Shown in pieces: positions 1-23,343 of a stretch of 56,051 nt of DNA. The notes beneath the pieces are model-generated. The model had not been told where the DNA came from. It searched no databases and worked only from the letters and a program-made list of their open reading frames with translations. Within the stretch, counting starts at the first letter, position 1; the number at the start of each line of letters is the position of its first letter. The stretch comes from a virus. The stretch covers positions 1-56,051 of the IMG/VR virus record IMGVR_UViG_3300025000_000126; one strand, 5' to 3'. The position numbers and the translations under genes are program-made.

Positions 1-127
1 CAATCATCTTATCAGTGTTGTGTGATTTGTTGCTTTCCACCATCTGCTGTTTCTGTAAAGCTGCAGTCTCTTTAGATACTTGATTCTCTCTTTCGAGTTG
101 CATCTCAATAGCTCTAAGTTGTAACTC
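1..127. repeat. Terminal redundancy of the contig (left copy)
   Basis: The first 127 bases are identical to 55925-56051. An exact 127-base overlap is what a k=127 de Bruijn assembly leaves when it closes a circle, so I read it as an assembly overlap and not as a phage terminal repeat. The portal reading frame runs straight through it. Confidence 0.95.
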
Positions 128-3100
128 TTCAGCCTTAGCTTGGGCCTTCTGTTGAAGTTCTGCAGCCTTAAGCTCTTGAGTCTGCTGATGCATAGCCATC
201 TGACCCTCAATCTGAAGTTGAGTAGCTTGCAGACCTGTCTGACTCTTCTGCTGTTCAATCTGCATCTGCTGCTGTGACTGCTGAGCTTGCTGAGCCTTAG
301 ACTCTTCTTGTTTCTTTCTAAGTTCTATTCTACTTGGGATGATATCAGCACCAAGTCCAAGAGTCTTAGCCATCTCTCTGAGGATATCAGCAACCCCTTC
401 CATCCCTACAATACTAAGATAATTAGGATTAGCAAGAATCTGAAGGAACTCATTCCTTCGCATCTCACTAGCACCTTTAAGGGTAAGGATCTCTGAGCCT
501 TTAGGTACTACATTAACGTCTCCAGTAAACTTAATATTATCATTACTAATAACATTCCAGTAGAACTGGTACTCAATTCTAGGTTTAATGAGTCCAAAGT
601 CTATATTCCTTACAGAATCTTTTATCCCTTTAGCTGCTGAGTCAAGTAACATAGATAACCCAGAAGCTGTCTGAGTTGCGCCCCCTGTGTTATGTGTAGG
701 TATGAAGTTGCCACACAAGAACAAATGATCTTTAGAGTCTACCTTTATACAAGTTGCAGTATGAGAACCAACATATTCAACTCCAGTTATGTAAGTGTTT
801 ACATACCTAGTTCTTGCTATACGTCTATTCTCTTTTCTTTTTATCTTAAATATTGGAACTGTAAGATCATTATACTGGAATGTAACCTTATAAGAGGGTT
901 TGTATCCAGCCTTTTTATTAACTGAAAATCCCTGAGTTATACCACCAAGAGACTTCACAAGTTGAATAAAATTGTCTCTAAGTTTCTTTGATGATGTAGT
1001 GAATATTAATCTTCCATTTTCTCCACAACACCCATCAGTATCCATAAGTCCACGTAGAACTTCTAGTCTAGTCCTCTCAGAGTTATACAGGTAATGTATT
1101 GGAATGAACTTATCAAAAGATCCTTTATCCCATACATCTGTTTTCTTGAGATCTGTTATCAGCCCTCTGCAATTATGATGAACACCATCAGGACCAAATG
1201 TAGTTTCATAAGGGATGTGGTCAAAGATTTCTAAATCTATACCTGAGATTTTTCCAGTCCCTTTACACCCATCCCCGAGCCACACTCCCATAGTATATGG
1301 ATCTACAGGAACATACCAGTTTATGTAGACTACACTTTTGATATTTGGTATCTTAAATTTTGGTCTATACTTATCTCCATCTTTCCTATAGATACCTTCA
1401 TCAAGTATTTGCTCTAAGCTCTTAGTCGTGAAGATGTCGTTGGTAGCTACATCCCATAGATGATCCATAGTGCAATCAACATGAGTGTTGTTAGAAAAAC
1501 GTACTCTAAAGATATCGCAAGTTCCTTGTGGATATACTCCCTTTACTTGGGAGATACCCCCGTAAGTATTGCATACTTCCATCCCAACTTCGAGGTTGCT
1601 TATCTTTACATGGCCGAACGGAGTGACGACAGTCTCGTAGTCAGCCAAACTTCTCTCATTGCCGTAAGCATATCGAGGAATACCAGTAGCATCATCTGCT
1701 CTGATCTCAAACTCCTTATAGACTGCTAGCAACTCTTGTGCATTACTTGTAGGTTGCCAGAAAGTTATAGCTCTGCCACCAGCCCCTGAAGGGTCTGATG
1801 TAAGTTGCCAAACATGAAAAGGAGTTATATCATCTATCTCAGAGTCATCTGCAAGTCTATCTACATACACCTCTATCTGAGGCCCTGAAGCAACTGCCAT
1901 ATTATTAGCAAGTGCTCTAGCAGTAGCATTACACATCCTCTGAATATCTCTCATAAGCTCTGGCAGGGATCTTCCCCAAAAAGAACCGGGGATGTTCTGC
2001 CAGGATGCTTTATAATAAGGTCTCCTCAAGAGCGGATCAGCATTAAGTACACACTTAATAACTTCACCACCTGCAAGAATAGCCTCTACTTCAAACTCTC
2101 TATCCTCATCAATACCTATTTTATCTTCTTCAAATCCCCAATCAGAGAGTAACTTCCACCCTATAGACCCATGGAAGTGTACACCATGGATGATATTCTT
2201 TGAGGCTCTGAAGGTATCTCCACGATACTCCTCAATTACCTTTTCTGATTCTATAGATGAGTCAAGTTCTTCTCCTGTATATCCACTCTTAAAGTCTTCT
2301 AAGATCTTTCTAATGTTTTCTTCTTTATAATTAGGAACCCCTATAAGGTTGTACAAAGATTTTCTATCAAATCTGACATGCTCACAAAGATCTCCTTCTT
2401 GAATACTAGTTGCATTAGCACTAGGATAGATATCAAGTGGAGATACTCTCTTATTTAAGAAAACAAAATCTTCAATCTCTTCTACTTCACCATCTTTATA
2501 AGTAAGTCTCTTCTTCTTCGAGATTACAGGAGCCTTCATTATAGCTACCTGGAATACACAAAAGTCTTCAATAAACTCAGAGAATGCTTTCTCCCATTCC
2601 CCCTCTTGAAGTTGATCAGCTACAATCTTCTCATACTTCTTAACTTCAGTAAGAGCTACCTTATATATCTCATCTGCTATAGCTTCTTCAATATCTCTTT
2701 TAAGTTGATTAACTTCCTGCATCTTCTGTGCAGCATTCATAACAGCAGGTTGATTTGGTTGCTGCTGTTGTTCTCCTTCTACAGGTGCAGGTGTCTCTAC
2801 AAGCTTATTGATTTGATCTTCTATCTGTGCTCTAATCTCTACAGGTAACTCAGGAACATCTGTAGGGTAGAGACCCCATGCATATTCCTTAGCTGGCATC
2901 ATAATATCTCTGAGCCATGACATAGCTGCCCTACACTTTGTAGGTGTAAGGTTCATGTAGATCTCAGAGCCACCAGTTTCTTGTATCCTAGCAAGATCTT
3001 CAGGATCGTAGTGCCCATTATAAGCTCTGAGAGACTGAAGCATCTTCTCTTCAATACCAGAAGATCTACGAGTATCTTGATTCTCTCTGAAGACTTCCAT

Positions 3101-3247
3101 GATATAAGAAGCTAAAGATGAATACTCTTCTTTCTCTTCTAGATAATCATCAGGATCTTCAATAGCTTTAGCATATAAATCTTCTATTTCTTGCACCTTA
3201 TCTGCTGGTGCTATAAATACTCCAGGTCTGTCATGGTAACTATCCAT
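1..3247 (-). CDS. Portal protein with intein, N-terminal 1082 codons (continues at 55924)
   Basis: Head-tail portal protein, the dodecameric ring through which DNA is packaged and ejected. The frame opens at ATG 3247, just after the terminase stop, and runs without a stop across the circle junction to TGA at 55884-55886: 1095 codons, or 774 residues once the 321-residue intein is removed. The host sequence Y-G-N-E-R joined to T-G-G-A-T-Q-T-A-S-G-L is a typical podovirus portal segment. The C-terminal part (about residues 935-1095) is a long Gln/Glu/Ala-rich coiled coil. Its place between large terminase and scaffold/capsid genes fits the usual packaging module. The start has only a weak Shine-Dalgarno, so translation is probably coupled to the terminase gene. 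I translated the frame by hand and found no frameshift. Confidence 0.88.
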   Translation of the reverse strand, partial: MDSYHDRPGVFIAPADKVQEIEDLYAKAIEDPDDYLEEKEEYSSLASYIMEVFRENQDTRRSSGIEEKMLQSLRAYNGHYDPEDLARIQETGGSEIYMNLTPTKCRAAMSWLRDIMMPAKEYAWGLYPTDVPELPVEIRAQIEDQINKLVETPAPVEGEQQQQPNQPAVMNAAQKMQEVNQLKRDIEEAIADEIYKVALTEVKKYEKIVADQLQEGEWEKAFSEFIEDFCVFQVAIMKAPVISKKKRLTYKDGEVEEIEDFVFLNKRVSPLDIYPSANATSIQEGDLCEHVRFDRKSLYNLIGVPNYKEENIRKILEDFKSGYTGEELDSSIESEKVIEEYRGDTFRASKNIIHGVHFHGSIGWKLLSDWGFEEDKIGIDEDREFEVEAILAGGEVIKCVLNADPLLRRPYYKASWQNIPGSFWGRSLPELMRDIQRMCNATARALANNMAVASGPQIEVYVDRLADDSEIDDITPFHVWQLTSDPSGAGGRAITFWQPTSNAQELLAVYKEFEIRADDATGIPRYAYGNERSLADYETVVTPFGHVKISNLEVGMEVCNTYGGISQVKGVYPQGTCDIFRVRFSNNTHVDCTMDHLWDVATNDIFTTKSLEQILDEGIYRKDGDKYRPKFKIPNIKSVVYINWYVPVDPYTMGVWLGDGCKGTGKISGIDLEIFDHIPYETTFGPDGVHHNCRGLITDLKKTDVWDKGSFDKFIPIHYLYNSERTRLEVLRGLMDTDGCCGENGRLIFTTSSKKLRDNFIQLVKSLGGITQGFSVNKKAGYKPSYKVTFQYNDLTVPIFKIKRKENRRIARTRYVNTYITGVEYVGSHTATCIKVDSKDHLFLCGNFIPTHNTGGATQTASGLSMLLDSAAKGIKDSVRNIDFGLIKPRIEYQFYWNVISNDNIKFTGDVNVVPKGSEILTLKGASEMRRNEFLQILANPNYLSIVGMEGVADILREMAKTLGLGADIIPSRIELRKKQEESKAQQAQQSQQQMQIEQQKSQTGLQATQLQIEGQMAMHQQTQELKAAELQQKAQAKAEELQLRAIEMQLERENQVSKETAALQKQQMVESNKSHNTDKMI
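689..1651 (-). other. Intein with LAGLIDADG homing endonuclease inside the portal protein
   Basis: Portal residues 533-853 (321 aa) form an in-frame insertion. It starts with Ser in a block A-like S-L-A-D-Y-E-T-V-V-T. Block B is seen as C-T-M-D-H (T-x-x-H). It ends with block G F-I-P-T-H-N, followed by Thr as the +1 nucleophile. Two dodecapeptide motifs, around W-L-G-D-G (first) and L-R-G-L-M-D-T-D-G (second), mark a LAGLIDADG (DOD) homing endonuclease in the middle. Removing the insert rejoins a conserved portal segment. Splicing keeps the portal functional while the nuclease drives homing. Ser1 and Thr+1 are both competent nucleophiles, and the terminal His-Asn is present, so the intein should be active. 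Confidence 0.88.
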
Positions 3248-3248
3248 C

Positions 3249-4658
3249 TTATACCCATAAGGTTCTAGTGCGTTTTATAGGTCTTTTAAATGCCCTCTTA
3301 TGCTTTACATCTCTGATAGATTCAAAGAAGGTGAATGCAAGGGAATCTGCTAGATCAGGTGAAGGGTATCCAAGCCTCTTTAAATCTTTCTTAGATAAGA
3401 GTTGGATCTGCATTTTATTGTTGTAACCATACTCCATTGATGTAAGTTGAGATGGTAAGTTAATATCTTTCTCCCGAGTCTCTGCTGGGAGATCTGCACC
3501 ATTCTCTAACCACTCTCTCATCTTACCCCATAACTGGGATCTAAGATTAGCATATCTCTCAGGTTCTGTAGATTTATTACTGACTACTACATCCTTTATA
3601 GGTAACTTAAGATCCCTACACCTGTCAGCAGTTCCAGCCCCTACCCCTATAGAGTCTATATAGATACCAGCACAATTATGGATTGAGTTAAACTCTGCTA
3701 CCTTAGTAGCAACCTCCATGGTATCAAGACCTTTGTAAAGTTTATAGTCTAACATCTTAGGACCTTGGCGAACTACTAGGGCTGTAAGGTCATCACCAAA
3801 TCTAGCTACATCTACTCCCATCACTTTAGGGAACTGATGGTAACTTCTATAATCTAGTTTGTTTCTTAATGCTTCCTCTACCGTGTCTGCTGAGATAAAC
3901 TGAGATACACCAACTCTAGGGAACTGACCAAGAACTCGCATTCTATATAGGTCACTGTCTACCCCGTAGGTATCTTCCATCTCCTTGATCCAATCTTCAT
4001 TAACATTCGGTGAGTCAAAAGCACTAAAGTAAAGCTTCTTCCAAGAACCTAGTTCCCTATTAAAGATCTCAAAGAACCTACCAGAAGACCTGACAGGGTT
4101 AGATACTAAGATAAATCTACCACCCTTACCAGTACTTAAAGTACCTAGTAAGATATCAAAAGCATCTTCAGGGATACCAGAACTTTCATCTCCTATGATG
4201 ATATAGTTACTAGCATGTCCACCTGCAAGACTCTCTTTATTCTCTGCAGATGCTGTAACTAATGAAGCAAATTGAACATATGTCTTAGCTTTATATTCAA
4301 CTTTCCTTAATGTAAGTTCAAAGAGATCTTGGAACTGCTTGGGCATTCTACGATACCACTTCTCTAGTTCATTTCTAAAGACACGCTCTAAGTGATTCGA
4401 TGTAGGTGCTGTTATAAGTATACGACAATCTGGAAGAGTTATAAGATACAATAAAGTCATCATACAAAGTACTGCAGTCTTACCACTACCAGTGCAAGAA
4501 GATACAGCTACACGAGCTGCTTGATCCATAGAGAGTCTTACTAGCTCCTGTTGCTGACCAGTAAGAGTTATATCAAATAAGCTTTCTATTCCTAGAACAT
4601 TATCTTTACTCCACAGGTCTACTAGGTCCTCGAACTGCTCTTGAGTTAATAAAGACAT
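3249..4658 (-). CDS. terL: Terminase large subunit
   Basis: DNA-packaging motor ATPase and nuclease, 469 aa. The ATPase has Walker A S-S-C-T-G-S-G-K-T at residues 53-61, and Walker B followed by the catalytic acid in Y-I-I-I-G-D-E-S near residue 150. The RNase H-like nuclease shows V-D-V-A-R-F-G-D-D, then I-D-S-I-G-V-G-A-G, then D-L-A-D-S near the C-terminus: the usual acidic triad spacing. The gene lies four bases below the putative small subunit and directly above portal. Length and domain order are normal for a podovirus terminase. The start follows the previous stop by only a few bases and the Shine-Dalgarno is weak, which suggests translational coupling. Confidence 0.93.
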   Translation of the reverse strand: MSLLTQEQFEDLVDLWSKDNVLGIESLFDITLTGQQQELVRLSMDQAARVAVSSCTGSGKTAVLCMMTLLYLITLPDCRILITAPTSNHLERVFRNELEKWYRRMPKQFQDLFELTLRKVEYKAKTYVQFASLVTASAENKESLAGGHASNYIIIGDESSGIPEDAFDILLGTLSTGKGGRFILVSNPVRSSGRFFEIFNRELGSWKKLYFSAFDSPNVNEDWIKEMEDTYGVDSDLYRMRVLGQFPRVGVSQFISADTVEEALRNKLDYRSYHQFPKVMGVDVARFGDDLTALVVRQGPKMLDYKLYKGLDTMEVATKVAEFNSIHNCAGIYIDSIGVGAGTADRCRDLKLPIKDVVVSNKSTEPERYANLRSQLWGKMREWLENGADLPAETREKDINLPSQLTSMEYGYNNKMQIQLLSKKDLKRLGYPSPDLADSLAFTFFESIRDVKHKRAFKRPIKRTRTLWV

Positions 4659-4661
4659 AAG

Positions 4662-5438
4662 TTACATACTATCCTCTTGTTCTATTAGAGTACCTTTAGC
4701 CTCTTTAGCTCTCTTCAAGATCTTATCAATAGCACTATCACCATCAAGACCTTCTATTGATATATTATCTTGAAAGGCAGCAAAGGTTCTTCCTAATTCT
4801 GAGATAGCTTTAAGTTGTGTCATAGCAGCTCTCTCACCTTCAAGGTTCTTAACCTTCTCCATGACTGCAAGGAGTTGAGACTGAATGAACCCTTTACCAT
4901 CTACTATAGTCTTTAACTTATCTTGTTGTATCTTCTGCAAGTATGCAGCTACATTAGGTTTCCTTTTGAGATAAAAGGCTCTAAGGTGCATAGCTTGCTT
5001 ATATTGCTCTCTATCCTTCTGATCTTTAGTCCTTTTAAGTCCTGCATCAAGCTTAGATTCTATTATAGCTTTGATGTCATCTCCATCATAGTTCATCAAC
5101 TCACAGAAGATAACCTCATTATCAGAGAGGACAAGGCTATCAGGTTCAGAAAGAAGAGATAAGAACTCTTTATTGATCTTCTCAGGGTCTAGAACATCCA
5201 TCTTAAAGGACTGATAGAGGGTAGGTTGCTGTGAGAGAAGGACTCTAGTCTCTCTTACATTGGATAAAGCCTTATGATGTCTAGTGATTATTAACTCTAT
5301 GTTATTTGTAGTGGTCTTATACTTGTCTGCAAGGGCCTGTGTAGTCATACCAGAGTAGATATAGTCATCTATAATGTCATATTTACTTTCTTTAGTGATA
5401 TTATCTACTTGCTTGCGTATAATGGTTTTAGTTTCCAT
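4662..5438 (-). CDS. Putative terminase small subunit
   Basis: 258 aa, the first gene of the minus-strand packaging/structural operon, ending just before the large terminase. Residues 20-60 look like a helix-turn-helix: T-T-Q-A-L-A-D-K-Y-K-T-T-T-N-N-I, a resolvase/small-terminase-like DNA-reading helix pair. The rest is helical and charged, with a predicted coiled segment at about 180-220. This fits a small terminase that recognises phage DNA and loads the motor. The assignment rests mainly on position and the HTH; sequence similarity to a named family is not obvious to me. It faces the structured-RNA region, so its promoter should lie within 5439-5600. Confidence 0.65.
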   Translation of the reverse strand: METKTIIRKQVDNITKESKYDIIDDYIYSGMTTQALADKYKTTTNNIELIITRHHKALSNVRETRVLLSQQPTLYQSFKMDVLDPEKINKEFLSLLSEPDSLVLSDNEVIFCELMNYDGDDIKAIIESKLDAGLKRTKDQKDREQYKQAMHLRAFYLKRKPNVAAYLQKIQQDKLKTIVDGKGFIQSQLLAVMEKVKNLEGERAAMTQLKAISELGRTFAAFQDNISIEGLDGDSAIDKILKRAKEAKGTLIEQEDSM

Positions 5439-5457
5439 AGGAGACCCCAGTGATTTA

Positions 5458-5488
5458 TTGTGTAACTTAATGAATTTGTAGTATATAT
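5458..5488 (+). promoter_or_regulatory. Weak sigma70-like promoter candidate
   Basis: TTGTGT at 5458-5463 and TATATAT at 5482-5488 are separated by 18 bases on the plus strand. If used, transcription would begin near 5495 and run into the structured RNA and gene 6144. The match to the -35 consensus is only partial and AT-rich DNA gives chance hits, so confidence is low. Confidence 0.28.
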
Positions 5489-5539
5489 ACCCCTTGTAGT
5501 GTTCTTTTAGACCCTATATGGGCAGGATTGTTGAGATTT

Positions 5540-6125
5540 TGGCAAGGATCTTAAAGGAGTCTGAAGGGGAAGGATTTTAGGGGCTTGTAGCGACTGAGAG
5601 ACCATCCCCTGAGCGCAGCGAGGGGGCTTCGATCCCCTTCAAGGGTGCTGCCCCCTCTGTAAGGGAAACTCCCCACCCCTGGCAAAGTGCTCCAAAATCT
5701 ATAAGGGGCAAGGGATTCGGCCTCTCAGACTCCCCAAGATGCTGGTTAGCATCGCTGTCAACCTTCCATGGTGGCTAGCGTCTCGCAAGAGGTCCCCTAG
5801 CCGTGAAGGTGAGTATCCGAGCCTGTAACCTGATACCGCAACAGGGACGCAGAACGGCCTAAAGGCAACGGATAGCAGATAAACGAGTATCTTCTAGACT
5901 CCTTCAGGAAACCGGGAAACCGCTGTTGAATCCTGATCATAGTAAGAAAATGAAAGACAAGCTGTATCGCCATGAGAAATCAGAAAGATATACCACGTTG
6001 ACTGGCGTGACATGGGATACAGTAGATTTACTAGTAGCTTGCAAGGTTCTGGCTTGTGTTAGTAGAACCTTGTGACGTAGTAGTAAATCAGTAAGATCAA
6101 CCTTAAACCGGAGGTTTTACCTCCT
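5540..6125 (+). ncRNA. Candidate large structured non-coding RNA or leader
   Basis: This gene-free stretch is richer in GC than its surroundings and holds many perfect helices. An outer 9-bp pair (5556-5564 with 5725-5733) encloses GATTTT/AAAATC (5573/5694), CCCCT/AGGGG (5606/5621) and GGGGGC/GCCCCC (5622/5650). A second domain pairs ACCTTC/GAAGGT (5761/5805) and GGCTAG/CTAGCC (5773/5797) around a CTC-GCAA-GAG hairpin with a GNRA loop. GTATC/GATAC (5813/5832) follows. A third domain pairs CTGTATC/GATACAG (5962/6016), then GATTTACTA/TAGTAAATC (6025/6081) enclosing AAGGTTCT/AGAACCTT (6043/6064). A GGAGG-TTTTA-CCTCC hairpin at 6110-6124 sits just before the ribosome site of gene 6144. The architecture resembles the large ornate phage RNAs (ROOL/GOLLD type), but I cannot match it to a known class. 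The strand is assumed. Confidence 0.6.
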
Positions 6126-6143
6126 ACAGGAGCCTAGAAAACC

Positions 6144-6821
6144 ATGAGTATCCCATTTGAAGGATTAGTTAGATTTCAGTTAACCAACGACAACGAGTAT
6201 TGGTCACAGCTTCAAGAAGCTACAAGGCTTCACCTTACAGCCCGTGATAGGTACGAGGACCTGTTAGCTTTTTGCAAAAAGAAAGGTGTCAAGTTCGTTG
6301 ATATTAAGAGACACCTTCTCAACGAAGCAAAGAAATGCGGATTGTATACCAGGAGCATGTGGAGCGATAAAGAAAAAGCTATGGTCTTCAGGACATGGAG
6401 TGATCTTCTCCAATGTAAGTATTCTTGGGTAATCAGCCTTAATAACTTTATAACCTATATTAAGAAATATAAGGATTATGATGTAAGGGCTGGTAGAGTA
6501 GCTAAAAAGAACCCTGTAGCCAGTAAGACTACAACGATTCGTAGAACCACTGATCAGGCTGGTAACAAGTCTGAAGTCAAAACAGAAACCATTGAGACAG
6601 TAGAGCCTGTAAAGAACCTTTCCCCTTCAGCACCTACTAGTATTCCAACAGGTTCTATTGTGGCTCCTGTCAGCCAGGATCTAACAGAGCTTCAACGTGT
6701 AACCTTGATCCTTCAGAACCTTGATCTCCTAGGTAAGGTCTGTCAAGAGAAGGGAGCCGTAAAGGAATTCAACACCTTAATGGCAGCTCTCGGATCGGTT
6801 GAGTTTATTATTGAAGCTTAA
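6144..6821 (+). CDS. Hypothetical early protein, 225 aa
   Basis: First protein gene of the plus arm, directly below the structured RNA. AGGAG at 6128-6132 lies 11 bases before the ATG. Residues 1-115 are mixed, Trp/Lys/Arg-rich and probably helical (a conserved-looking core around K-K-K-G-V-K-F-V-D-I). Residues 120-175 are a Pro/Thr/Ser-rich linker, and 180-225 form a final helical pair. I do not recognise the family. Being first in the early arm, it may act in host takeover or regulation, but nothing in the sequence proves this. Confidence 0.75.
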   Translation: MSIPFEGLVRFQLTNDNEYWSQLQEATRLHLTARDRYEDLLAFCKKKGVKFVDIKRHLLNEAKKCGLYTRSMWSDKEKAMVFRTWSDLLQCKYSWVISLNNFITYIKKYKDYDVRAGRVAKKNPVASKTTTIRRTTDQAGNKSEVKTETIETVEPVKNLSPSAPTSIPTGSIVAPVSQDLTELQRVTLILQNLDLLGKVCQEKGAVKEFNTLMAALGSVEFIIEA

Positions 6822-6832
6822 TACCGTCTTTT

Positions 6833-6867
6833 AGCCTTGTAGAGTTCTTGAAGGATTCTACAAGGCT
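6833..6867 (+). promoter_or_regulatory. 11-bp perfect hairpin between genes
   Basis: AGCCTTGTAGA (6833-6843) and TCTACAAGGCT (6857-6867) form a perfect stem with a 13-base loop. There is no T-tract on either side, so it is not a classical terminator. It may be an RNA processing or mRNA-stability element separating gene 6144 from the next small genes. Confidence 0.5.
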
Positions 6868-6908
6868 TGAAGATGTTATTAACCCTTTCACTTAATGGAG
6901 ATAATCAA

Positions 6909-7064
6909 ATGAAAGTAATAAGAATCTCAAAAGATGCTAAGATTGTAAGACGGTTAGAAAGGTATGAGAAATCAATTAAAGCTGATCAGTATCTTTCAGC
7001 CTTGCAGCTTCCTTCAGTCTCTCTTCGAAGAGAGATGACCAGGAAGTCTAACTTAATCTTATAA
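6909..7064 (+). CDS. Small basic hypothetical protein, 51 aa
   Basis: The start at ATG 6909 is chosen because AATGGAGATAATCAA gives a good Shine-Dalgarno just upstream; an in-frame ATG at 6867 lies inside the hairpin and lacks one. The product is rich in Arg and Lys (R-R-L-E-R-Y, L-R-R-E-M-T-R-K) and may bind nucleic acid or a host protein. Family unknown. It belongs to a run of tiny early genes in which host-takeover proteins are common. Confidence 0.55.
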   Translation: MKVIRISKDAKIVRRLERYEKSIKADQYLSALQLPSVSLRREMTRKSNLIL

Positions 7065-7080
7065 CCTATAAGGTAATCCA

Positions 7081-7305
7081 GTGATAAAAGAACTCTGTTG
7101 TGGCTTTATATTTGCTTTAATAGCTACAAGTCTTATATTATCCTTTATCTTCTTTTTAGGAGTTACAATGGATAAAACATCCTGTAGCTCCTATGGGGAA
7201 GTTACAAACACTAAAACCCATTATGATATCTTCAGTGGCTGTTATATCAAGAAAGGATATGATTGGTATCTTTTAGACTCTTTTAGGGTGGAGGAACCAA
7301 AATGA
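7081..7305 (+). CDS. Small membrane protein, 74 aa
   Basis: GTG start at 7081 with AAGGTAAT upstream. Residues 5-30 are a single hydrophobic segment (G-F-I-F-A-L-I-A-T-S-L-I-L-S-F-I-F-F-L), followed by a short domain with three Cys and several Tyr and Trp. It looks like an N-terminal anchor with a soluble tail, or an uncleaved signal. Its stop overlaps the next start (ATGA). Function unknown. Confidence 0.6.
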   Translation: MIKELCCGFIFALIATSLILSFIFFLGVTMDKTSCSSYGEVTNTKTHYDIFSGCYIKKGYDWYLLDSFRVEEPK

Positions 7306-7469
7306 ACTTTATAGAGATAGATGAAAACATTAAGGTTAATGTAAGATCTGTAGAGTCTTTAACCCTTATAGACAACATAGTAGTCATTCAGTTTACTGAT
7401 AAGTCTATAAGGAAAAGAGAGTTCTATGATGTACAAGAAGCTAGATATTACTTTAACTCTATTCAGTAA
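7302..7469 (+). CDS. Hypothetical protein, 55 aa
   Basis: Starts in the ATGA overlap with the gene above, with GGAGG a few bases upstream. It alternates strand-like segments (V-N-V-R-S-V, N-I-V-V-I-Q-F-T) with a charged C-terminal helix and looks like a small alpha/beta fold. No family recognised. Confidence 0.5.
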   Translation: MNFIEIDENIKVNVRSVESLTLIDNIVVIQFTDKSIRKREFYDVQEARYYFNSIQ

Positions 7470-7505
7470 CCTGAAGGAGTTACACAATTAAAAGGAGATA
7501 ATAAC

Positions 7506-7652
7506 ATGGAAAGTAAATGTAAGGTAATAGGAGCTGTAGCCTTTCCCCTTAAAGAATCCTTCAAGGTGGTTAAGAGTTATAAGAAATCATTAAAAACTAA
7601 ATTAGGTCCTTTACTCTTTAAGGCTTATGTTGCTAAGAGTATTCAAAAGTAA
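7506..7652 (+). CDS. Small basic hypothetical protein, 48 aa
   Basis: AAAGGAGATAATAAC provides a strong ribosome site for ATG 7506. The 48-residue product is Lys-rich (about one quarter) with a few aliphatic runs. It is the last gene before the repeat-rich intergenic block. No family recognised; a nucleic-acid-binding early protein is possible. Confidence 0.5.
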   Translation: MESKCKVIGAVAFPLKESFKVVKSYKKSLKTKLGPLLFKAYVAKSIQK

Positions 7653-7817
7653 TATAAAACGCTATCTTACAGCACCTACCATGATCATATAATTATACAG
7701 TTGTGTAACTTTCTTTTACTTCTGTATAAGCTATATAGATCTGGTAGGTCCTGTAAGCCACTTAGATTCTAATACATCTTATAGACTCTATAGGATATAT
7801 TAGCACCTAATTGGTTT

Positions 7818-7862
7818 CTATCAGGTGTATAAGGATTCTTTAAGGTACTTCACATTCTTATA
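7818..7862 (+). repeat. 45-bp direct repeat, copy 1, in the 7653-8112 non-coding block
   Basis: It begins CTATCAGGTGTATAAG and matches 7945-7989 at 43 of 45 positions. The block 7653-8112 has no gene and also contains the palindrome CACCTGATAGGTG (7864-7876) and several partial CAGGTG/CACCT copies in both orientations. Iteron-like repeats in a gene-free, AT-rich stretch ahead of the replication genes suggest a replication origin or a repressor/activator site. Neither is shown by sequence alone. Confidence 0.8.
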
Positions 7863-7944
7863 TCACCTGATAGGTGCTATTAGCCCTTATAGTATCCTTT
7901 CTTAATGGATGAAAAGGGTTATCCTTTATACATCTAATAGTAGC

Positions 7945-7989
7945 CTATCAGGTGTATAAGAGTTCTTTAAGGTACTTCACATTCTTATA
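7945..7989 (+). repeat. 45-bp direct repeat, copy 2
   Basis: Differs from copy 1 (7818-7862) only by GA/AG at two adjacent positions. The copies start 127 bases apart. An AT-rich stretch with TTTATATACC (8055-8070) follows, then AAGGAGG (8091-8097), the ribosome site for gene 8113. Confidence 0.8.
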
Positions 7990-8112
7990 GAACTCTGATA
8001 GCATCTTATTAGAACCTATAGTCCTTATAGTACTATTAGACCCTAAAAGGATAAACTGTAGTTTATATACCATTCACTGTGCTTAACTCAAGGAGGTTTA
8101 GCTAAATAGCTT

Positions 8113-8337
8113 ATGCTAGATTTCTACGTAAGTGAGAACGCTGTAGGATGTGAACCTCCTTGGAATTGTGAAGAATCTGTATTAGCTTCAAGATACTTCT
8201 GGAGCAGAATGATTTATTGCTCTGAAGAGTCTACATTTGGTAATAAATACTCATTGTATCAAAGGTTAGGATTTGCTACGGGTGGATTAATACATGAAAG
8301 TAATCTAATTAAGTTATTAGTAAAAAGGAGACTGTAA
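8113..8337 (+). CDS. Tail-motif mini-gene 1 (74 aa)
   Basis: First member of the repeated tiny-gene family. It begins with an F-Y-V strand, has the central R-M-I-Y motif near residue 36, and ends L-L-V-K-R-R-L. It aligns visibly with genes 16031, 16240 and 16467 in the core (W-S-R-M-I-Y, then Y-Q-R-L-G and G-G-L-I-H). The last codons read AAAAAGGAGACTGTAATG, so the tail encodes the ribosome site of gene 8337. Its own AAGGAGG lies 15 bases before the ATG, with a small AGCT-AAAT-AGCT hairpin in between that could shorten the spacing. Function unknown. Confidence 0.75.
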   Translation: MLDFYVSENAVGCEPPWNCEESVLASRYFWSRMIYCSEESTFGNKYSLYQRLGFATGGLIHESNLIKLLVKRRL

Positions 8338-8558
8338 TGAACAGTACTAAAAAAGAGGTTATATCAAAAGAGAAAGAAATAGAATATCCAGTCTTAATGA
8401 AATCAAAATACTCAGATTTTGTTATATTACTTGTAACTCCTAAAGTCGGAACTGTAGTATGGTCAAATGACTATTCATATGAAGTAGGGTATTGGTCATC
8501 CTCTTGGATTAAAGATTCCTTTGATTATTATGATGGAAAGATACTCTTAGAGAACTAA
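8337..8558 (+). CDS. Hypothetical protein, 73 aa
   Basis: Starts in the TAATG overlap at the end of mini-gene 1, whose final codons supply its Shine-Dalgarno. The N-terminus is charged (Lys/Glu). The rest is rich in Tyr, Trp, Ser and Asp with alternating strands. It does not carry the K-R-R-L tail. No family recognised. Confidence 0.6.
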   Translation: MNSTKKEVISKEKEIEYPVLMKSKYSDFVILLVTPKVGTVVWSNDYSYEVGYWSSSWIKDSFDYYDGKILLEN

Positions 8559-8723
8559 ATGAAAACATTTATTAAAAATAACTGGCATTGGTTGTGGAGA
8601 ATACCTGTAAACTTTTTTACTATTTTATCTGGGAGAATTCCAATATGGCTATTAGTAGCTTGTATCTTTATTTTTATGATTGATTTAATTATTCTAGGAA
8701 TAAGACTTCAAGAGGAGTTTTAA
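8559..8723 (+). CDS. Small membrane protein, 54 aa
   Basis: Follows the previous stop directly (TAAATG). An amphipathic Trp/Lys/Arg-rich N-terminus precedes a strong transmembrane segment at about residues 29-48 (I-W-L-L-V-A-C-I-F-I-F-M-I-D-L-I-I-L). One Asp lies inside the membrane run. Inner-membrane protein of unknown role; in the early arm it is more likely superinfection- or takeover-related than lytic. Confidence 0.5.
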   Translation: MKTFIKNNWHWLWRIPVNFFTILSGRIPIWLLVACIFIFMIDLIILGIRLQEEF

Positions 8724-8724
8724 T

Positions 8725-8916
8725 ATGTGCACCTGTAAGAGTGGTTCGATGTGTTCTCGAAAGCATACCATCCTAATCAATGGTATTCCTCAAGTAATCT
8801 TCAAGAGTAAGAAGGAGGCTATTGAGTTCTGTAAATCAGTCAAGAAAGATCCTAAGACTCCTGAAGAGTGGATCTTTGAAATCTCATGTAGCTGTGGAAC
8901 CATTAAGATTGAATAA
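8725..8916 (+). CDS. Cys-rich small protein, 63 aa
   Basis: Six Cys in C-x-C, a single C, C and C-x-C groups (M-C-T-C near the start, S-C-S-C near the end) suggest metal binding. The ribosome site AGAGGAG lies at 8711-8717. The stop overlaps the next ATG (TAATG). No named family. Confidence 0.6.
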   Translation: MCTCKSGSMCSRKHTILINGIPQVIFKSKKEAIEFCKSVKKDPKTPEEWIFEISCSCGTIKIE

Positions 8917-9206
8917 TGGCTATAGTAATCTTTAAGGATGTAGAAAGAATCATTCAGGAGGATGGAGACCAAATACGTCTATTTCCTAATGGTGGTTTTT
9001 TTGATTCTAGAGTTCAGGATATTTTAACTTCTGAAATGAAAAGGCTTCTAACCAATAATAGAAGAAGATTCTCTAAATATAAAAGAACTAGTGATAACTT
9101 TAATCCACCTAAGAAATTCTGTATTAATAATGAAGATTGGGACTGGTATGGTCTTTGGGTGAAGATGTACATACCAGATAACTTCAAGGTGAAGAGGATA
9201 CTATAA
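8916..9206 (+). CDS. Tail-motif gene, diverged member (96 aa)
   Basis: It ends F-K-V-K-R-I-L, encoded by AAGGTGAAGAGGATACTATAATG, the same tail-plus-ribosome-site arrangement as the mini-gene family. It opens with a strand (A-I-V-I-F). The middle is longer than in other members, Arg/Lys- and Asp/Trp-rich, and lacks a clear R-x-I-Y motif. It is therefore either a remote member or an unrelated gene whose 3' end was replaced by a family tail. Confidence 0.6.
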   Translation: MAIVIFKDVERIIQEDGDQIRLFPNGGFFDSRVQDILTSEMKRLLTNNRRRFSKYKRTSDNFNPPKKFCINNEDWDWYGLWVKMYIPDNFKVKRIL

Positions 9207-9658
9207 TGAGAAAAGGAGAACTGTTAGAAGAAGTATTAAGAGCCTCTGGTGCTACTTTCATCGAACGTGGCTCTGGATATAATGAATACAGATTAGGTTC
9301 TAATATTGTCTTCTGGAATGAATTTCCAGAACTCTTCATAGGATTTAGATTAAACGGTAAAGAGATAAATGAACTTGACCTTATAGATTTTATAAGATCT
9401 TATAAGGTCAATAGAAGGTTTGTAAAAGATAATAACGACACCCTTGTAGAGGTTCCTGAAGGACTACCACTCTGTAAGAACTGTAAGTTCTATAATTCAG
9501 TAGGCTTTACTACGTTTTGTAGTTCTGATACGTACAATACAGTAATTGATCCTGTCAATGGAACTAATCAGACCTTTAAGGCTAATTGTTTAGCTTGTAG
9601 GCTTGATATCAATATTAACGGTTGTGGTATCTTCGGGGATAGATATGAGAAAGGTTAA
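9206..9658 (+). CDS. Hypothetical Zn-ribbon protein, 150 aa
   Basis: Starts in the TAATG overlap with gene 8916. Residues 1-75 resemble a small alpha/beta domain. Residues 90-145 hold C-x-x-C (C-K-N-C), then C, C-x-x-C (C-L-A-C) and a final Cys, a plausible zinc-binding knuckle. No specific family assigned. It sits in the run of small genes just before the ATP-grasp gene. Confidence 0.6.
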   Translation: MRKGELLEEVLRASGATFIERGSGYNEYRLGSNIVFWNEFPELFIGFRLNGKEINELDLIDFIRSYKVNRRFVKDNNDTLVEVPEGLPLCKNCKFYNSVGFTTFCSSDTYNTVIDPVNGTNQTFKANCLACRLDININGCGIFGDRYEKG

Positions 9659-9683
9659 ATATAGTGGAAGAAGAGTGGTTTGA

Positions 9684-9803
9684 ATGAAGTATTGGATAAA
9701 GCAGTTCTCGACTTTATCTATTTATAAGTCAAGAAGTATAGCGTTTAGTAGGCTTAATTTCTTTGAGCCATTTATCCAACTATCTATTAAAAGGAGATTG
9801 TAA
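9684..9803 (+). CDS. Tail-motif mini-gene, short form (39 aa)
   Basis: Begins M-K-Y-W-I and ends P-F-I-Q-L-S-I-K-R-R-L. The central S-R-S-I motif and the P-F-I-Q-L run are shared with gene 11035, so these two are clear paralogues. The last codons (AAAAGGAGATTGTAATG) form a ribosome site, here for an 11-codon leader ORF at 9802. Function unknown. Confidence 0.6.
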   Translation: MKYWIKQFSTLSIYKSRSIAFSRLNFFEPFIQLSIKRRL

Positions 9804-9837
9804 TGACTATTAAGGGACAAGATAAACTAGAACGATA
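9802..9837 (+). CDS. Possible 11-aa leader peptide
   Basis: ATG 9802 overlaps the stop of gene 9684 and is served by that gene's AAAAGGAGA. It encodes M-T-I-K-G-Q-D-K-L-E-R and stops at 9837, four bases before a leader with alternative hairpins. It could be a true leader peptide or simply the remnant of a gene lost downstream of the mini-gene. Confidence 0.3.
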
Positions 9838-9840
9838 ATA

Positions 9841-9924
9841 TAGGGTCTACAATCCATTTTCATAAGAAAACAAGTTACCCTACAGGCTATCTACAGAAAA
9901 TCAAATGTAGGTGCCTTGTAGGGT
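9841..9924 (+). promoter_or_regulatory. Structured leader with alternative hairpins, copy A
   Basis: TAGGGT (9841-9846) can pair with ACCCTA (9877-9882), while ACCCTACAGGC (9877-9887) can pair instead with GCCTTGTAGGGT (9913-9924). These are mutually exclusive stems of the attenuator kind. Positions 9842-9884 resemble 10903-10945 (both contain CTACAATCCATTTTC and GAGTTACCCTACA or AAGTTACCCTACA). It lies immediately before the ATP-grasp gene. Confidence 0.5.
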
Positions 9925-9943
9925 CTAGAAGGGGGTATTTATA

Positions 9944-10723
9944 ATGAAACCTATAAGAATCTTACGGTATGGCCCTTCAGACAGCCTTAATAGACTTGTA
10001 GATTCTCTCAGAGAGTCTGAAGTTGATGTTAAGAAACTAAAGATGATCAACAGCTCTTACAGGGGATCTATTGATCATTTCATATTTAATTGGGGATCTT
10101 CAAGCTATAGAAATATAGCTAGTTGTAATATCTTCAATAGACCATCTGCTGTTGCTATTGCAGCTAACAAGCTGGATACATACTATACCTTGGAAAGAGC
10201 TGGACTTAATAATGTCCTTCCAGTGTGGTTTACTGATCCTGATTTAGCTAAGCATTACACTAAGAATGGATGTAAGGTATACTGTCGTACTACTCTTACT
10301 GGGTCTCAAGGGGAAGGGATTATAGTATCTACTGAACCTTCTGAAGTGGTTCATGCTTCTCTCTACACCCTTCAGGCCCCTGTATGTAGGGAAGTGAGAG
10401 TACATGTGTTTGCTGATGAAGTTATCTATTGTACAGAGAAACGTAAGATGAACTCTGAAAGGCTGGAAGAGGAATCTATTGAGTTCTCAAGGGATGTTCG
10501 TAACCTTGAGAATGGATGGGTATTCTGCCAAACAGAAGTACCTGAATCAGTGCAAAGTGTTGCAATTGATGTAGTAGAAAGGCTTGGTTTAGACTTCGGT
10601 GCTGTAGATATTGGTCTCTCTCACAGGAATGAACCTTTCATCTTTGAGGTTAATACAGCACCTGGATTGGAAGGAACTACACTGACTGCTTACAGGGATG
10701 CTATCATTGCACAACTATGTTAG
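9944..10723 (+). CDS. ATP-grasp carboxylate-amine ligase (RimK-like)
   Basis: 259 aa. ATP-grasp enzymes join a carboxylate to an amine through an acylphosphate. The nucleotide-binding loop is seen in T-L-T-G-S-Q-G-E-G-I-I-V at about residues 117-128. Conserved C-terminal metal ligands appear in D-F-G-A-V-D-I-G and in F-E-V-N-T-A-P-G, the standard RimK/D-Ala-D-Ala ligase signature. With the amidoligase at 11162 and the glutamine amidotransferase-like gene at 13176 it forms the peptide-modification set described in phages and bacteria. The substrate may be a host or virion peptide or cell-wall amine; the sequence does not say which. GGGGG lies shortly before the ATG. Confidence 0.85.
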   Translation: MKPIRILRYGPSDSLNRLVDSLRESEVDVKKLKMINSSYRGSIDHFIFNWGSSSYRNIASCNIFNRPSAVAIAANKLDTYYTLERAGLNNVLPVWFTDPDLAKHYTKNGCKVYCRTTLTGSQGEGIIVSTEPSEVVHASLYTLQAPVCREVRVHVFADEVIYCTEKRKMNSERLEEESIEFSRDVRNLENGWVFCQTEVPESVQSVAIDVVERLGLDFGAVDIGLSHRNEPFIFEVNTAPGLEGTTLTAYRDAIIAQLC

Positions 10724-10902
10724 AGTTCCTTTTAGGTACAGAGATTAATTACGCCTGGAGAAGAGGAATCTTATGGTATTCTCCAACCACAAATATGTAT
10801 GGGTGTTATTCCTTTAATCACCCAAAGCGTTATGTAAGGGAAATGTTTAATGGTGACTACCCACGTGGGAGAACTCTATTAAAGGTGAAGAGGAGACTAT
10901 AA
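10717..10902 (+). CDS. Tail-motif mini-gene (61 aa)
   Basis: Starts within the last codons of the ATP-grasp gene (ATGTTAG overlap). It begins M-L-E-F-L-L and ends L-L-K-V-K-R-R-L, encoded by AAAGGTGAAGAGGAGACTATAAGG. The middle is Tyr/Trp/Arg-rich. No ATG follows the tail, which runs instead into leader copy B. Unknown function; family assigned by the N-terminal strand and the tail. Confidence 0.6.
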   Translation: MLEFLLGTEINYAWRRGILWYSPTTNMYGCYSFNHPKRYVREMFNGDYPRGRTLLKVKRRL

Positions 10903-11034
10903 GGTATCTACAATCCATTTTCCATTAAAGATGAGTTACCCTACACACCTATACCTAAAGATTAAACCTAGGGGCCTTCTAGCCCCTTCTAAAGCGAAAT
11001 AAAGTGGAGCTTTTACTTCTAGGAGGTATTTCAT
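10903..11034 (+). promoter_or_regulatory. Structured leader, copy B
   Basis: 10903-10945 repeats the CTACAATCCATTTTC ... GAGTTACCCTACA block of copy A (9842-9884). Downstream, GGGGC-CTTCTA-GCCCC (about 10971-10986) forms a short stem, followed by AGGAGG at 11021-11026, the ribosome site for gene 11035. Two related leaders directly after mini-gene tails suggest the leader travels with them or controls both transcripts. Confidence 0.45.
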
Positions 11035-11160
11035 GTGACATATTGGATACAAGTATGGTCTAGTAGAGATTATCTAGGAGATTCAAGAAGTATTGTAGTC
11101 TCTTATAGAGGTATGTATTTTCCTCCTTTCATACAACTGAAGGTTAAAAGGAGACTGTAA
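11035..11160 (+). CDS. Tail-motif mini-gene, short form (41 aa)
   Basis: GTG start at 11035 with AGGAGG eight bases upstream. It reads V-T-Y-W-I at the start, S-R-S-I-V in the middle and P-F-I-Q-L-K-V-K-R-R-L at the end, and is clearly paralogous to gene 9684. The terminal AAAAGGAGACTGTAAG is the ribosome site for GTG 11162. Unknown function. Confidence 0.6.
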   Translation: MTYWIQVWSSRDYLGDSRSIVVSYRGMYFPPFIQLKVKRRL

Positions 11161-11161
11161 G

Positions 11162-12997
11162 GTGGTAGAGTTCTCCTTAACCTATAAGGATGATGATGGT
11201 TGGTTTCAATTTGTAAGGAGTATAAACTATACTAAAGAAGATATATTTTACTATTTCTATAAGGATGGAGGTCGTATAAGAAGTATACATGATTATAATT
11301 ATTATGATTTAGAAAAACCACTAACTAAAAGGAACCTAACTATGCCTACTCAAACTGAGTGTTTGTGTGTTAACTGTCATGAGAATATTACTGATCCTGA
11401 TTTCAGAGTGGTACTCTACCAGGAAGAGTATCCTGAGATTGAGATTGGTCCTTACTGTGAACAATGCCTTGCAAGAGTTAAGATCTGTAGTGGGTGTCAG
11501 AAACCTGCTATGATAGATACTGTAACTCATGTAGGTAGTGGGTTGCATTACTGTTCTGAGTGTGTAAAAAACCTTGAGATCTGTAGTCACTGTGGATCTC
11601 AGGTAAGTGGTGGTACTACTGTTATAAATGGAAAGAAGGTATGTAACTCCTGTAGGGAGTCTTACTATTTCTTGTGTAAGAGTTGTAATACCTATCACCA
11701 CCAGTATGGCTCAGTATCTCATAATTCCTTTGAGGGTCTTCAAAGAGCTGGTATGTTCAAGAAGTATGGGAATCTTGTATGTAAAGAGTGCTTTGAAAGA
11801 CGTAAGCCATTCTACAAGAAATATGAAGTATCTACCTGTAGTCACTGTGAAAGATACTTTACTATCACTGACCCCTCCCAGACAGAGTTCTGTCAGAGCT
11901 GTTATGATGGTTTTGATACTTGCAGTATCTGTGGTGATAAAAATCCACATGTTCATGCAGCAAGGGTTGAAGGTGAAGGACTTTTTATCTGCAAGAGTTG
12001 TATTAAGAAGTATAACAAATGCGATCACTGTAATCGCTTGACAAAAGATAAACTTCATGTTATAAAAGGTAGAACAAATACCTATACTGTATGCTCTGAG
12101 TGCCACTCTTTTTATCGTATCTGTAAGGTTTGTGGATCATTTACAAGTAATGAAAGTTGTGTCTGTAATACTTGTGATAATACCTACGTAAATAATATCT
12201 GTGAGGTTTGTGGGAGAATTAAGGACGGTTCAGGAAACTGTAGGGTCTGTCATGAATCCTTCATCTACAGGTACTCTGAGAAACCTCCATTGTTCTTCAA
12301 TGTATCAAAAAAGGATAAGACCAAGGATATCTTCTTTGGCTTCGAGAATGAAACTACCTATGGAGACTCTTACACTGATAAGAATATTGCCCTTAAAGAA
12401 ATCTATAAGGTGTATGATCCTACCATCCTCCTGTGTAAGAGTGATGGGTCTATCAGGGGTGAAGGGTTTGAGATAGTTACACAACCAATGACCTATCAGT
12501 TCTTTAATGATACTTCATGGGCTGGTCTCTTCCAGGATGGTATTAAGAAGAGTAAGTCATGTGGACTTCATGTTCATGTAGAACGTCATGCATTCTTATC
12601 TGATATACATCTCTATAAGGTGTGTAATTTTATCTATGAAAATAAACTGTTTATCAAATATATAGTAGGTCGTGATAGTAATGAATACTGTAAGGACTTT
12701 AGGTATAAAGTATCTACAGAGATTAAAAATGCTAAGATGAAGAGAACTGAAAGGCATCAAGCAGTTAACTTCAATAACAGTAATACTATTGAATTCCGCA
12801 TGTTTGCTGGATGTACTACAGAGAAGGAACTTAGATATAAGATTGAGTTTCTTCATGCTCTTGTAACCTACCAGAAGACTACACCTATCAGTACCTGCAA
12901 GGATCTTCTTCTCTTCAAGGAATATGTCAGAGAGAATGAGAAGACTTATTCTAACCTGTTTGTAAAGGTGAAGAGGTATGCCTTGCCGAGGATGTAA
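11162..12997 (+). CDS. Amidoligase with N-terminal zinc ribbons and a fused mini-gene
   Basis: 611 aa. Residues 1-60 (11162-11341) look like a mini-gene without a stop: V-E-F-S-L strand, R-I-R-S-I-H motif, and P-L-T-K-R-N-L tail. ATG 11342 has its own AAAAGGAAC site and is probably the ancestral start (551 aa). Residues 68-370 hold many C-x-x-C pairs, a string of treble-clef or LIM-like zinc ribbons. Residues 390-595 carry amidoligase hallmarks: F-G-F-E-N-E, K-S-D-G-S-I, L-H-V-H-V-E and I-E-F-R-M-F. Amidoligases of the glutamine-synthetase fold form amide or peptide bonds and pair with ATP-grasp and GATase genes, as here. The C-terminus ends F-V-K-V-K-R then a short extension, itself resembling a mini-gene tail and overlapping the next mini-gene start. 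Confidence 0.82.
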   Translation: MVEFSLTYKDDDGWFQFVRSINYTKEDIFYYFYKDGGRIRSIHDYNYYDLEKPLTKRNLTMPTQTECLCVNCHENITDPDFRVVLYQEEYPEIEIGPYCEQCLARVKICSGCQKPAMIDTVTHVGSGLHYCSECVKNLEICSHCGSQVSGGTTVINGKKVCNSCRESYYFLCKSCNTYHHQYGSVSHNSFEGLQRAGMFKKYGNLVCKECFERRKPFYKKYEVSTCSHCERYFTITDPSQTEFCQSCYDGFDTCSICGDKNPHVHAARVEGEGLFICKSCIKKYNKCDHCNRLTKDKLHVIKGRTNTYTVCSECHSFYRICKVCGSFTSNESCVCNTCDNTYVNNICEVCGRIKDGSGNCRVCHESFIYRYSEKPPLFFNVSKKDKTKDIFFGFENETTYGDSYTDKNIALKEIYKVYDPTILLCKSDGSIRGEGFEIVTQPMTYQFFNDTSWAGLFQDGIKKSKSCGLHVHVERHAFLSDIHLYKVCNFIYENKLFIKYIVGRDSNEYCKDFRYKVSTEIKNAKMKRTERHQAVNFNNSNTIEFRMFAGCTTEKELRYKIEFLHALVTYQKTTPISTCKDLLLFKEYVRENEKTYSNLFVKVKRYALPRM

Positions 12998-13172
12998 CCA
13001 ATCAGGAACTAGTATTTCTGATTATAATAGTGAAGTAGAGACCTATGGAATCATTTTGTATAATCACTTTAAAGAGATACGGAATGATATCTATTTATCC
13101 TGTCAGCAGTGTTATGAAGATGACCTCCCAAGTAAAACAACTCTTGGTCTATTAATCAAAAGGAGACTTTAA
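12978..13172 (+). CDS. Tail-motif mini-gene (64 aa)
   Basis: ATG 12978 lies inside the 3' end of the amidoligase, directly after AAGGTGAAGAGG, which is both a family tail sequence and a Shine-Dalgarno. It carries N-D-I-Y-L-S in the middle and ends L-L-I-K-R-R-L (ATCAAAAGGAGACTTTAATATATG), giving the ribosome site for gene 13176. The N-terminus is atypical (C-R-G-C) and may bind metal with a later C-x-x-C. Unknown function. Confidence 0.6.
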   Translation: MPCRGCNQSGTSISDYNSEVETYGIILYNHFKEIRNDIYLSCQQCYEDDLPSKTTLGLLIKRRL

Positions 13173-13175
13173 TAT

Positions 13176-14060
13176 ATGTGCATAGCTATTTATAAGCCTG
13201 TAGGAAAAGAACTCTCTGAGGCTGTACTTAAAACCTGCTTCAATAATAATAATGATGGAGCAGGGTTCGCTTATATTTCAACGGATTATCACGGTGTTAA
13301 GAGGGTAAAGTTAAAGAAGTTTATGAAGTTTGATCAGTTCTATACAGCCTATAAGAGGGCTACTGATACAGCCCCTGACAGCCCCTTCATTATTCACTTT
13401 AGAATTGGTACACATGGTGAGAAGACAGTATACAACTGTCATCCTTTCTATGTGGATAAGAACCTTGTATTCATCCATAATGGTATCATCTCAGGTGTTG
13501 GTACCGACGTTAAGAAGTCAGATACACAACTCTTTAATGATAAGATCTTGAAGAAGCTACCAAAAGGATGGGAATCTAATGAAGCTATCCAAGAGTTGAT
13601 AGCTGATTATATTGGTTACTCTAAGCTCATCTTCCTAAATGTATTAGGTGAAGTGTATATTGTAAATGAGAAGAAAGGTAACTGGAATGATGGTATTTGG
13701 TTTAGTAATGAGTCCTACAAGGAGAGGACATATACACCACATACTACTTATAGCTCTGGAAGATATCCAGTAACTACATACAGAAATAAATGGTGGGAAG
13801 TTTCCTTCCACACGGTAGAGACCTGTGATTTCTGTAATGGTGCTAAACCTCTCAGGTCTCTCACAGTCTATAAGGATATAGATAATCCTCTTGATGTTAT
13901 CTTCATATGCAATCAGTGTCATAAAGAAGTAACTGATAATTGTATTCTTAGTGCTAATGAAATGATTCCTTTGTATAAGTACATAGAGGAAGAGAATAAG
14001 CGTCTTGCAATTGTGCATGACAAAAGTATCTTTACAGATGAACAAACCTATATGATGTAA
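13176..14060 (+). CDS. Class II glutamine amidotransferase-like protein
   Basis: 294 aa. Cys2 directly after the initiator Met (M-C-I-A-I-Y) is the N-terminal nucleophile of Ntn-type amidotransferases, which free ammonia from glutamine. Supporting motifs are D-G-A-G-F-A near residue 27, F-R-I-G-T-H-G near 74 and F-I-H-N-G-I-I-S near 99, the normal substrate-pocket sequence. Residues about 215-250 add C-x-x-C ... C-x-x-C, a zinc ribbon. It likely supplies ammonia to the ATP-grasp/amidoligase pair above. Function in the phage is inferred from context. Confidence 0.8.
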   Translation: MCIAIYKPVGKELSEAVLKTCFNNNNDGAGFAYISTDYHGVKRVKLKKFMKFDQFYTAYKRATDTAPDSPFIIHFRIGTHGEKTVYNCHPFYVDKNLVFIHNGIISGVGTDVKKSDTQLFNDKILKKLPKGWESNEAIQELIADYIGYSKLIFLNVLGEVYIVNEKKGNWNDGIWFSNESYKERTYTPHTTYSSGRYPVTTYRNKWWEVSFHTVETCDFCNGAKPLRSLTVYKDIDNPLDVIFICNQCHKEVTDNCILSANEMIPLYKYIEEENKRLAIVHDKSIFTDEQTYMM

Positions 14061-14065
14061 CCTCT

Positions 14066-17694: not shown

Positions 17695-17695
17695 G

Positions 17696-19315: not shown

Positions 19316-19362
19316 TATTAAAGGAGAGTTTATTCTCTTTGGTTCTACTTTAAGGAGTGGAA

Positions 19363-20069: not shown

Positions 20070-20150
20070 CATCAGTCTTTATATCTAGAAACAATATTAG
20101 AACGCAAATATAAAATAGAAAAATACTTAAAACAATAGGAGAATATAACT

Positions 20151-23341: not shown

Positions 23342-23343
23342 CT

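Follow-up and report, generated by a model that had tools for sequence, protein, structure and literature searches.

A gene-free stretch at the divergence point of a phage genome

What does a phage encode in about 550 bases that hold no gene, are rich in predicted helices and lie exactly where its two gene arms diverge? This question is raised by the record IMGVR_UViG_3300025000_000126, whose entire length of 56,051 bases was analyzed and is referred to here as the window. The two ends of the record share a repeat of at least 100 bases, and the phage genome is thus very likely complete and assembled as a circle. At the divergence point (5439-6143), leftward genes lie on one side and rightward genes, starting at 6144, on the other. 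The leftward arm (minus strand) carries the portal gene with an insert, the gene for the terminase large subunit (3249-4658), identified by a PHROGs match, and the presumed gene for the terminase small subunit (4662-5438), which has no family match in PHROGs or Pfam and was assigned from its location directly upstream of terminase large. The rightward gene block spans 6.1 to 30.7 kb, i.e. an operon of roughly 25 kb. Its first gene (6144-6821, plus strand) encodes a 225-aa protein with no assigned function, for which no PHROG or Pfam match was found and whose predicted structure is of low confidence (pLDDT 52). The phage also encodes a family A DNA polymerase with a group I intron inside its gene, a primase-helicase, a sigma-70 region 2 protein and an endonuclease I-like protein.

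Several other features were recorded along the genome. The portal gene (1-3247, minus strand; Pfam SU10_portal), whose reading frame continues on the minus strand through position 1, contains an in-frame insert that matches LAGLIDADG and is probably an intein. The group I intron (18437-18798, plus strand) splits the family A DNA polymerase into two halves, and short pieces of it (18633-18683) are near-identical in Pseudoalteromonas phage HP1, Klebsiella phage Roth32, phage C72C1 and an Aeromonas phage. The ribonucleotide reductase gene (26933-29662, plus strand) has an intein-splicing domain (Pfam Intein_splicing, E 6e-18) and an HNH motif inside it. Adjacent genes at 9944-14060 (plus strand), with weak matches to RimK/ATP-grasp, amidoligase and glutamine amidotransferase, possibly form a small peptide- or amide-forming cluster, and a 42-bp tandem repeat of 3.6 copies (50624-50773) lies within a leftward ORF.

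There is no ORF of at least 60 aa on either strand of 5439-6143, and the GC content of 5540-6125 is 0.502 vs. 0.395 genome-wide, which bears out the claims of a first-pass annotation that the region is free of genes and GC-richer than the rest. On the plus strand, 5540-6125 folds with an MFE of -217.8 kcal/mol (z -4.5), and none of 100 shuffled sequences folds as well. The minus strand also folds well (z -4.0), as is expected of long perfect helices. Across 122 other 586-nt segments/strands of the genome, the mean z is -1.04 (sd 1.43); only two of these have a lower z than the element, namely those starting at 7201 (plus strand; -7.4) and 29701 (plus strand; -7.0), and none has a lower MFE. 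The folding of the element is exceptional within the genome, yet it is not unique.

The segment at 29701-30286 is coding, and the fold of its plus strand is unusually stable given the base composition (z -7.0, 16 shuffles). A second gene-poor and very hairpin-rich stretch is found within the rightward operon (7653-8112, plus strand; z -6.4 for 7290-8110 and -7.4 for the above segment starting at 7201). It holds two direct repeats of 59 nt, 127 nt apart (7804-7862 and 7931-7989), and a DNA search of five related records with it returned only short matches of 15-35 bases. Since such a stretch exists in the same genome, hairpin richness alone is not special here.

Related regions in other phages and the conserved core

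With terminase small, terminase large and the 225-aa neighbour as queries, contigs from the same phage group were gathered. Homologous regions occur in no fewer than eight further IMG/VR contigs. Their place and strand are those of the element, and the terminase-small genes next to them are 32-91% identical. The element adjoins terminase small in every member found, and where both flanks are present it shares the strand of the rightward genes. All of the relatives are metagenomic, and most are cut inside the region. L001, L018 and L022 are identical to the window into the 5′ edge of the element, where the contig ends. The region is complete in L026 and L031; it is also complete in G003 (L003 plus L016), but joined there across contig ends. 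It is cut in L024, G004 (L004), L027 and L028, as well as at the 3′ side in L002, a close relative. L095 (G011) is more distant, with a terminase small of 40% identity.

Homologues of the 225-aa gene are found at the same place in L026 (68%), L031 (35%) and G003 (32%), the last of which has an extra 61-aa ORF between the element and the gene. No homologue was found in G011, where a core-like match is present; thus, the element is not tied to that gene. When the region was compared by blastn with named phages, chance-level matches only were obtained, and tblastn of terminase small revealed no named-phage relative. Matches of terminase large to named phages are all below 60% identity, the best being phage C72C1, which has annotated genes at the element's expected place. 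A scan of genome contigs found no relative, and the core DNA pattern (see below), searched over all viral contigs, gave only the members already known.

The most widely recognisable part of the element lies near its 5′ end. This core domain of ~123 nt (5592-5714, plus strand) is defined by alignments of six members, in which it is 122-126 nt long, and by held-out profile matches. A DNA profile from five members, searched in 650 kb of sequence, matches at the corresponding place and strand in L026 (E 6e-9), L028 (4.5e-7), L031 (0.0021) and L024 (0.0048), among which L026, L031 and L024 are the only independent held-out matches, as L028 is nearly identical to L027 of the training set. The sole other match is a second, weak one inside G004 (0.021), with nothing elsewhere at E <0.02. 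An iterated profile reaches L095 (E 0.0019, in a smaller search set), a weak match in a region full of short tandem repeats. The core constants are a CCCC/GGGG stem around a GCGCA loop, seen in the window as CCCCU (5606-5610) and AGGGG (5621-5625), and a strand near the end of the core that is CUAUAAGGGG in the window and similar to it elsewhere; the GCGCA loop motif is absent in L031. The ~123-nt core provides a defined query for searching other collections.

Tandem repeats of 10-11 bp lie beside the core in L002 and L031 and, as judged by eye, in G011, whose contig ends (L098 1-300 and L095 1-160) show a short GATAGCCT/GATAGGTACA-type repeat array beside the weak core match. The octamer CTnnnAGG occurs in 4000-24000 of the window at ~2x its rest-of-genome frequency, on both strands, and short repeats similar to it adjoin the core in related phages (L031, G011).

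Conservation of the region as RNA-like sequence

The window and L002 are ~89% identical over their best 393 aligned bases, compared to 80% at the third codon positions of terminase small and 69% at those of terminase large, and this conservation covers the whole aligned length, not one element alone. In six of six members, the plus strand has both a lower MFE and a lower z than the minus strand. Consensus folding was then compared with column shuffles, giving z-scores for the plus and minus strands, respectively, of -4.1 and -1.3 for window/L002, -7.9 and -6.9 for G003/G004, -3.2 and -2.8 for G004/L027, -2.3 and -1.9 for the core in seven sequences, and -1.7 and -0.5 for the core in three. The plus strand is the better one in all five sets; column shuffling ignores dinucleotides, so that the absolute z values are rough, and the strand comparison should be less affected.

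Among the 120 consensus pairs of window/L002, two show double changes, eight show single changes and none is broken, a count biased in favour of the structure, which had been fitted to this very alignment. Most of the helix changes between these two sequences yield G-U pairs. In G003/G004, six double changes leave an 11-bp terminal hairpin intact, and this hairpin becomes much weaker when strands are swapped between the two sequences. For stem H1, the outer pairs by themselves are not above permutation, as 15% of permutations give pairing just as good. When WC-only MFE structures were transferred within pairs of members, the result was uninformative, the single-sequence folds being unreliable; these differ from the consensus folds in several places.

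No reading frame conserved across members was seen in the region. A small protein in the 3′ part (KLYRHxKSER, in the window and L026) was considered and dropped, as a one-base insertion in L002 shifts its frame. Covariation in homologues, proposed earlier as a check, is present, although its formal statistics are limited by the few sequences. The claim of a large structured RNA is thus supported by homologues at the same place, by consensus folding that favours the plus strand and exceeds shuffles, and by helices that are maintained while their sequences differ. The region shows RNA-like conservation at a fixed place and strand, with a core of near-constant length and variable outer domains.

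Domains of the element

The element is preceded by an AT-rich spacer (5439-5539) just upstream of the terminase-small start. The spacer is similar to that of L002, and at the matching place an 88-nt stretch is conserved between G003 and G004/L027. We presume that the spacer is the divergent promoter site, an assumption for which a sigma-70 scan of 5439-5539 found no site.

At the 5′ side, the strand AGGAGUCUG (5555-5563, plus strand) is perfectly complementary in the window to both 5895-5903 and 5725-5733, and the two pairings are mutually exclusive. As isolated pairs in the window, that with 5725-5733 is the stronger (-15.5 vs. -13.4 kcal/mol). In L002, the pairing with 5895-5903 (UAGACUCCU) is kept as AGGGGUCUA/UAGAUUCCU and stays at 9 bp via G-U changes (-10.4 kcal/mol), whereas that with 5725-5733 is imperfect (-9.2 kcal/mol); the former is therefore better conserved. 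The 9-bp closing pair described in the first-pass annotation (5556-5564/5725-5733) is indeed perfect in the window, but it is not the best-conserved pairing of the 5′ strand. Hypothetically, the two long-range pairings could form a switch.

Following the core, three stacked helices (5761-5766/5806-5811, 5773-5778/5797-5802 and 5782-5784/5789-5791) with a GCAA tetraloop cap make up 5761-5811. The innermost, CUC-GCAA-GAG at 5782-5791, is the GNRA-capped stem that had been reported, and it sits inside the other two. In L002 the tetraloop is identical, and both helix changes yield G-U pairs. By complementarity, UAUCCG (5814-5819) may pair with CGGAUA (5869-5874) and close further small helices (5814-5874); this helix is tentative, as the single-sequence and consensus folds prefer overlapping alternatives. 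A hairpin formed by UCAGGA (5904-5909) and UCCUGA (5931-5936) is unchanged in L002. The CUGUAUC-g-CCAUG / CAUGG-GAUACAG domain (5962-6022), present in the MFE structure, is kept in L026 with one G-U substitution and one mismatch. Directly before this domain, between the middle and 3′ domains, L002 has ~140 extra nt with further hairpins; structured RNAs often vary by such inserted stretches.

The 3′ arm (6025-6089) consists of 6025-6033/6081-6089 enclosing 6042-6050/6064-6072. The nested arm of the earlier description is thus present, with 9+9 rather than 9+8 bp, and most of the other perfect helices named there are found as well. At the same place, L026 has an arm of the same plan and unrelated sequence (CAGCCUGUUAGA/UCUAACAGGCUG and CUUUAGG/CCUAAAG). 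Finally, the small hairpin GGAGGU-UUU-ACCUCC (6110-6124), which had been noted to abut a ribosome site, lies just upstream of the likely ribosome site of the 225-aa gene in the window; in L026, nothing like it precedes the neighbouring gene.

Search for known RNA families

No match to any of the 4227 models of Rfam 15 was found in 5430-6200, even at E<=5. The ROOL, GOLLD, OLE, tmRNA and group I or II intron models gave none in L002, L004, L026 and L027 at E<=3, nor in L016 (G003) at E<=1, and none of these members scored credibly against other classes of structured RNA. The group I intron core (RF00028) is absent in 5430-6200, and the same search does detect the one at 18437-18798. ARAGORN found no tmRNA in the window or the members, and no tRNA in the window. 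Near the element, Rfam, run at gathering as well as permissive thresholds, and ARAGORN on the window and members detected only the tRNA-Leu beside terminase in L027 and L028 and the tRNA cluster of L034. These tRNAs lie upstream of terminase, the tRNA-Leu at 776-853 in L027 and the cluster, in the more distant L034, consisting of five tRNAs within 1-1453. The tRNA-like ends and tag frame of a tmRNA were not detected with ARAGORN and Rfam, and the tRNA neighbourhood typical of ROOL and GOLLD is lacking from the window. In G003 and G004, GGGATTCGACGG and what may be a short peptide frame had suggested a tmRNA, an idea dropped on the negative Rfam and ARAGORN results.

The first-pass annotation had suggested that the element may be a member of ROOL or GOLLD, or else a new class. 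Membership finds no support in the empty Rfam search and the window without tRNA, and a new class is the better half of that guess. With its conserved structure and no conserved protein frame, the element should be filed as a new family under the broad kind of large structured phage RNA, not under ROOL or GOLLD.

Nature and possible role of the element

Our best reading of the element, to which we give an even chance, is a new family of large structured RNAs with several domains, encoded on the plus strand where the rightward operon begins in a group of uncultivated tailed phages. The element would form the start of the rightward transcript, which is presumably early: no intrinsic-terminator-like site was found on the plus strand of 5439-6143, so that an RNA begun in the AT-rich spacer would continue across the element and on into the rightward genes. 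The RNA fold itself would then be the product. We think it most likely that a stable RNA is freed from the transcript and serves as a scaffold or binding partner, the alternative being a leader that stays attached to the transcript. With modest confidence, we rank a free structured RNA above a leader acting on RNA polymerase, and the latter above a replication primer. A more specific proposal, put forward tentatively and well short of an even chance, is that of a new class of large ornate RNA from the early operon head that would act in trans as a particle or scaffold, is unrelated to ROOL and GOLLD in sequence and may switch its fold between the two pairings of the 5′ strand.

A cis-acting leader, which we consider possible but rather doubtful, would remain with RNA polymerase as nascent RNA and allow it to pass pauses and terminators along the ~25-kb operon in the manner of HK022 putRNA, or would gate the first gene. 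Its location at the head of the 6.1 to 30.7 kb block, on the strand of the rightward genes where both flanks are known, and the terminator-free plus strand all suit such a role. However, putRNA is ~70 nt, making the element some eight times larger, the leftward arm has no such element, and the conservation between the window and L002 spans the whole aligned length. Control of translation of the 225-aa gene is unlikely, since the ribosome-site hairpin is not conserved in L026, the 61-aa ORF of G003 intervenes and G011 has a core without the gene. An origin of replication, at which the structured transcript would make an R-loop and prime DNA synthesis like RNA II in ColE1 plasmids, is unlikely. 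The cumulative GC skew is lowest near 5000, tandem repeats adjoin the core in three relatives, and the phage encodes its own family A DNA polymerase and primase-helicase; but the minimum is also just where the genes change direction, the window's own region has no such tandem array apart from one 8-bp pair, and no origin protein was identified.

That the inverted repeats merely resemble RNA helices and belong to a double-strand DNA element, e.g. a pac site by the terminase genes, appears very unlikely. The constant proximity to terminase small would fit, whereas folding consistently prefers the plus strand, the G-U pairs produced by most window/L002 helix changes are sensible only in RNA, and a pac site needs no multi-branch structure of several hundred bases. 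The least probable reading, to which we give hardly any weight, places the element in a known family (ROOL, GOLLD, OLE, tmRNA, or a group I or II intron) as a broken or highly diverged member. It draws on the phage location and on the GGG(A)TTCGACGG found in G003 and G004, which we take to resemble the conserved 5′ motif of tmRNA; against it are the Rfam and ARAGORN searches above, at thresholds as permissive as E<=5, with a group I intron detected by the same search elsewhere in the window.

Comparison with known systems

Of the RNAs to which the element can be likened, RNA II of ColE1 is a structured transcript of ~550 nt at an origin, the origin here being a candidate. HK022 putRNA is an RNA element early in a phage transcript (PMC9378689) and thus a possible functional analogue, but it is far smaller, and the likeness is one of position. 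Large structured RNAs from phages fall into just a handful of known classes, two of which, ROOL and GOLLD, assemble into RNA-only cages with a function still open (PMC12286853); these two are nearest in kind to the element. Like ROOL, the element is large, ornate and phage-encoded, with no known protein partner. ROOL, however, is often near tRNA islands (PMC12286853), whereas the element gives no match to its covariance model and lies between divergent operons beside terminase genes, in a window without tRNA. With GOLLD it shares being a large phage RNA that combines a conserved and a variable part; the GOLLD model gives no match, and in GOLLD it is the 3′ region that is conserved and many members are longer than 800 nt (PMC12286853), as opposed to the core near the 5′ end here. 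An RNA family unrelated to ROOL and GOLLD, with a fixed place at an operon head rather than in a tRNA island, would offer a new testable case for the role of such RNAs.
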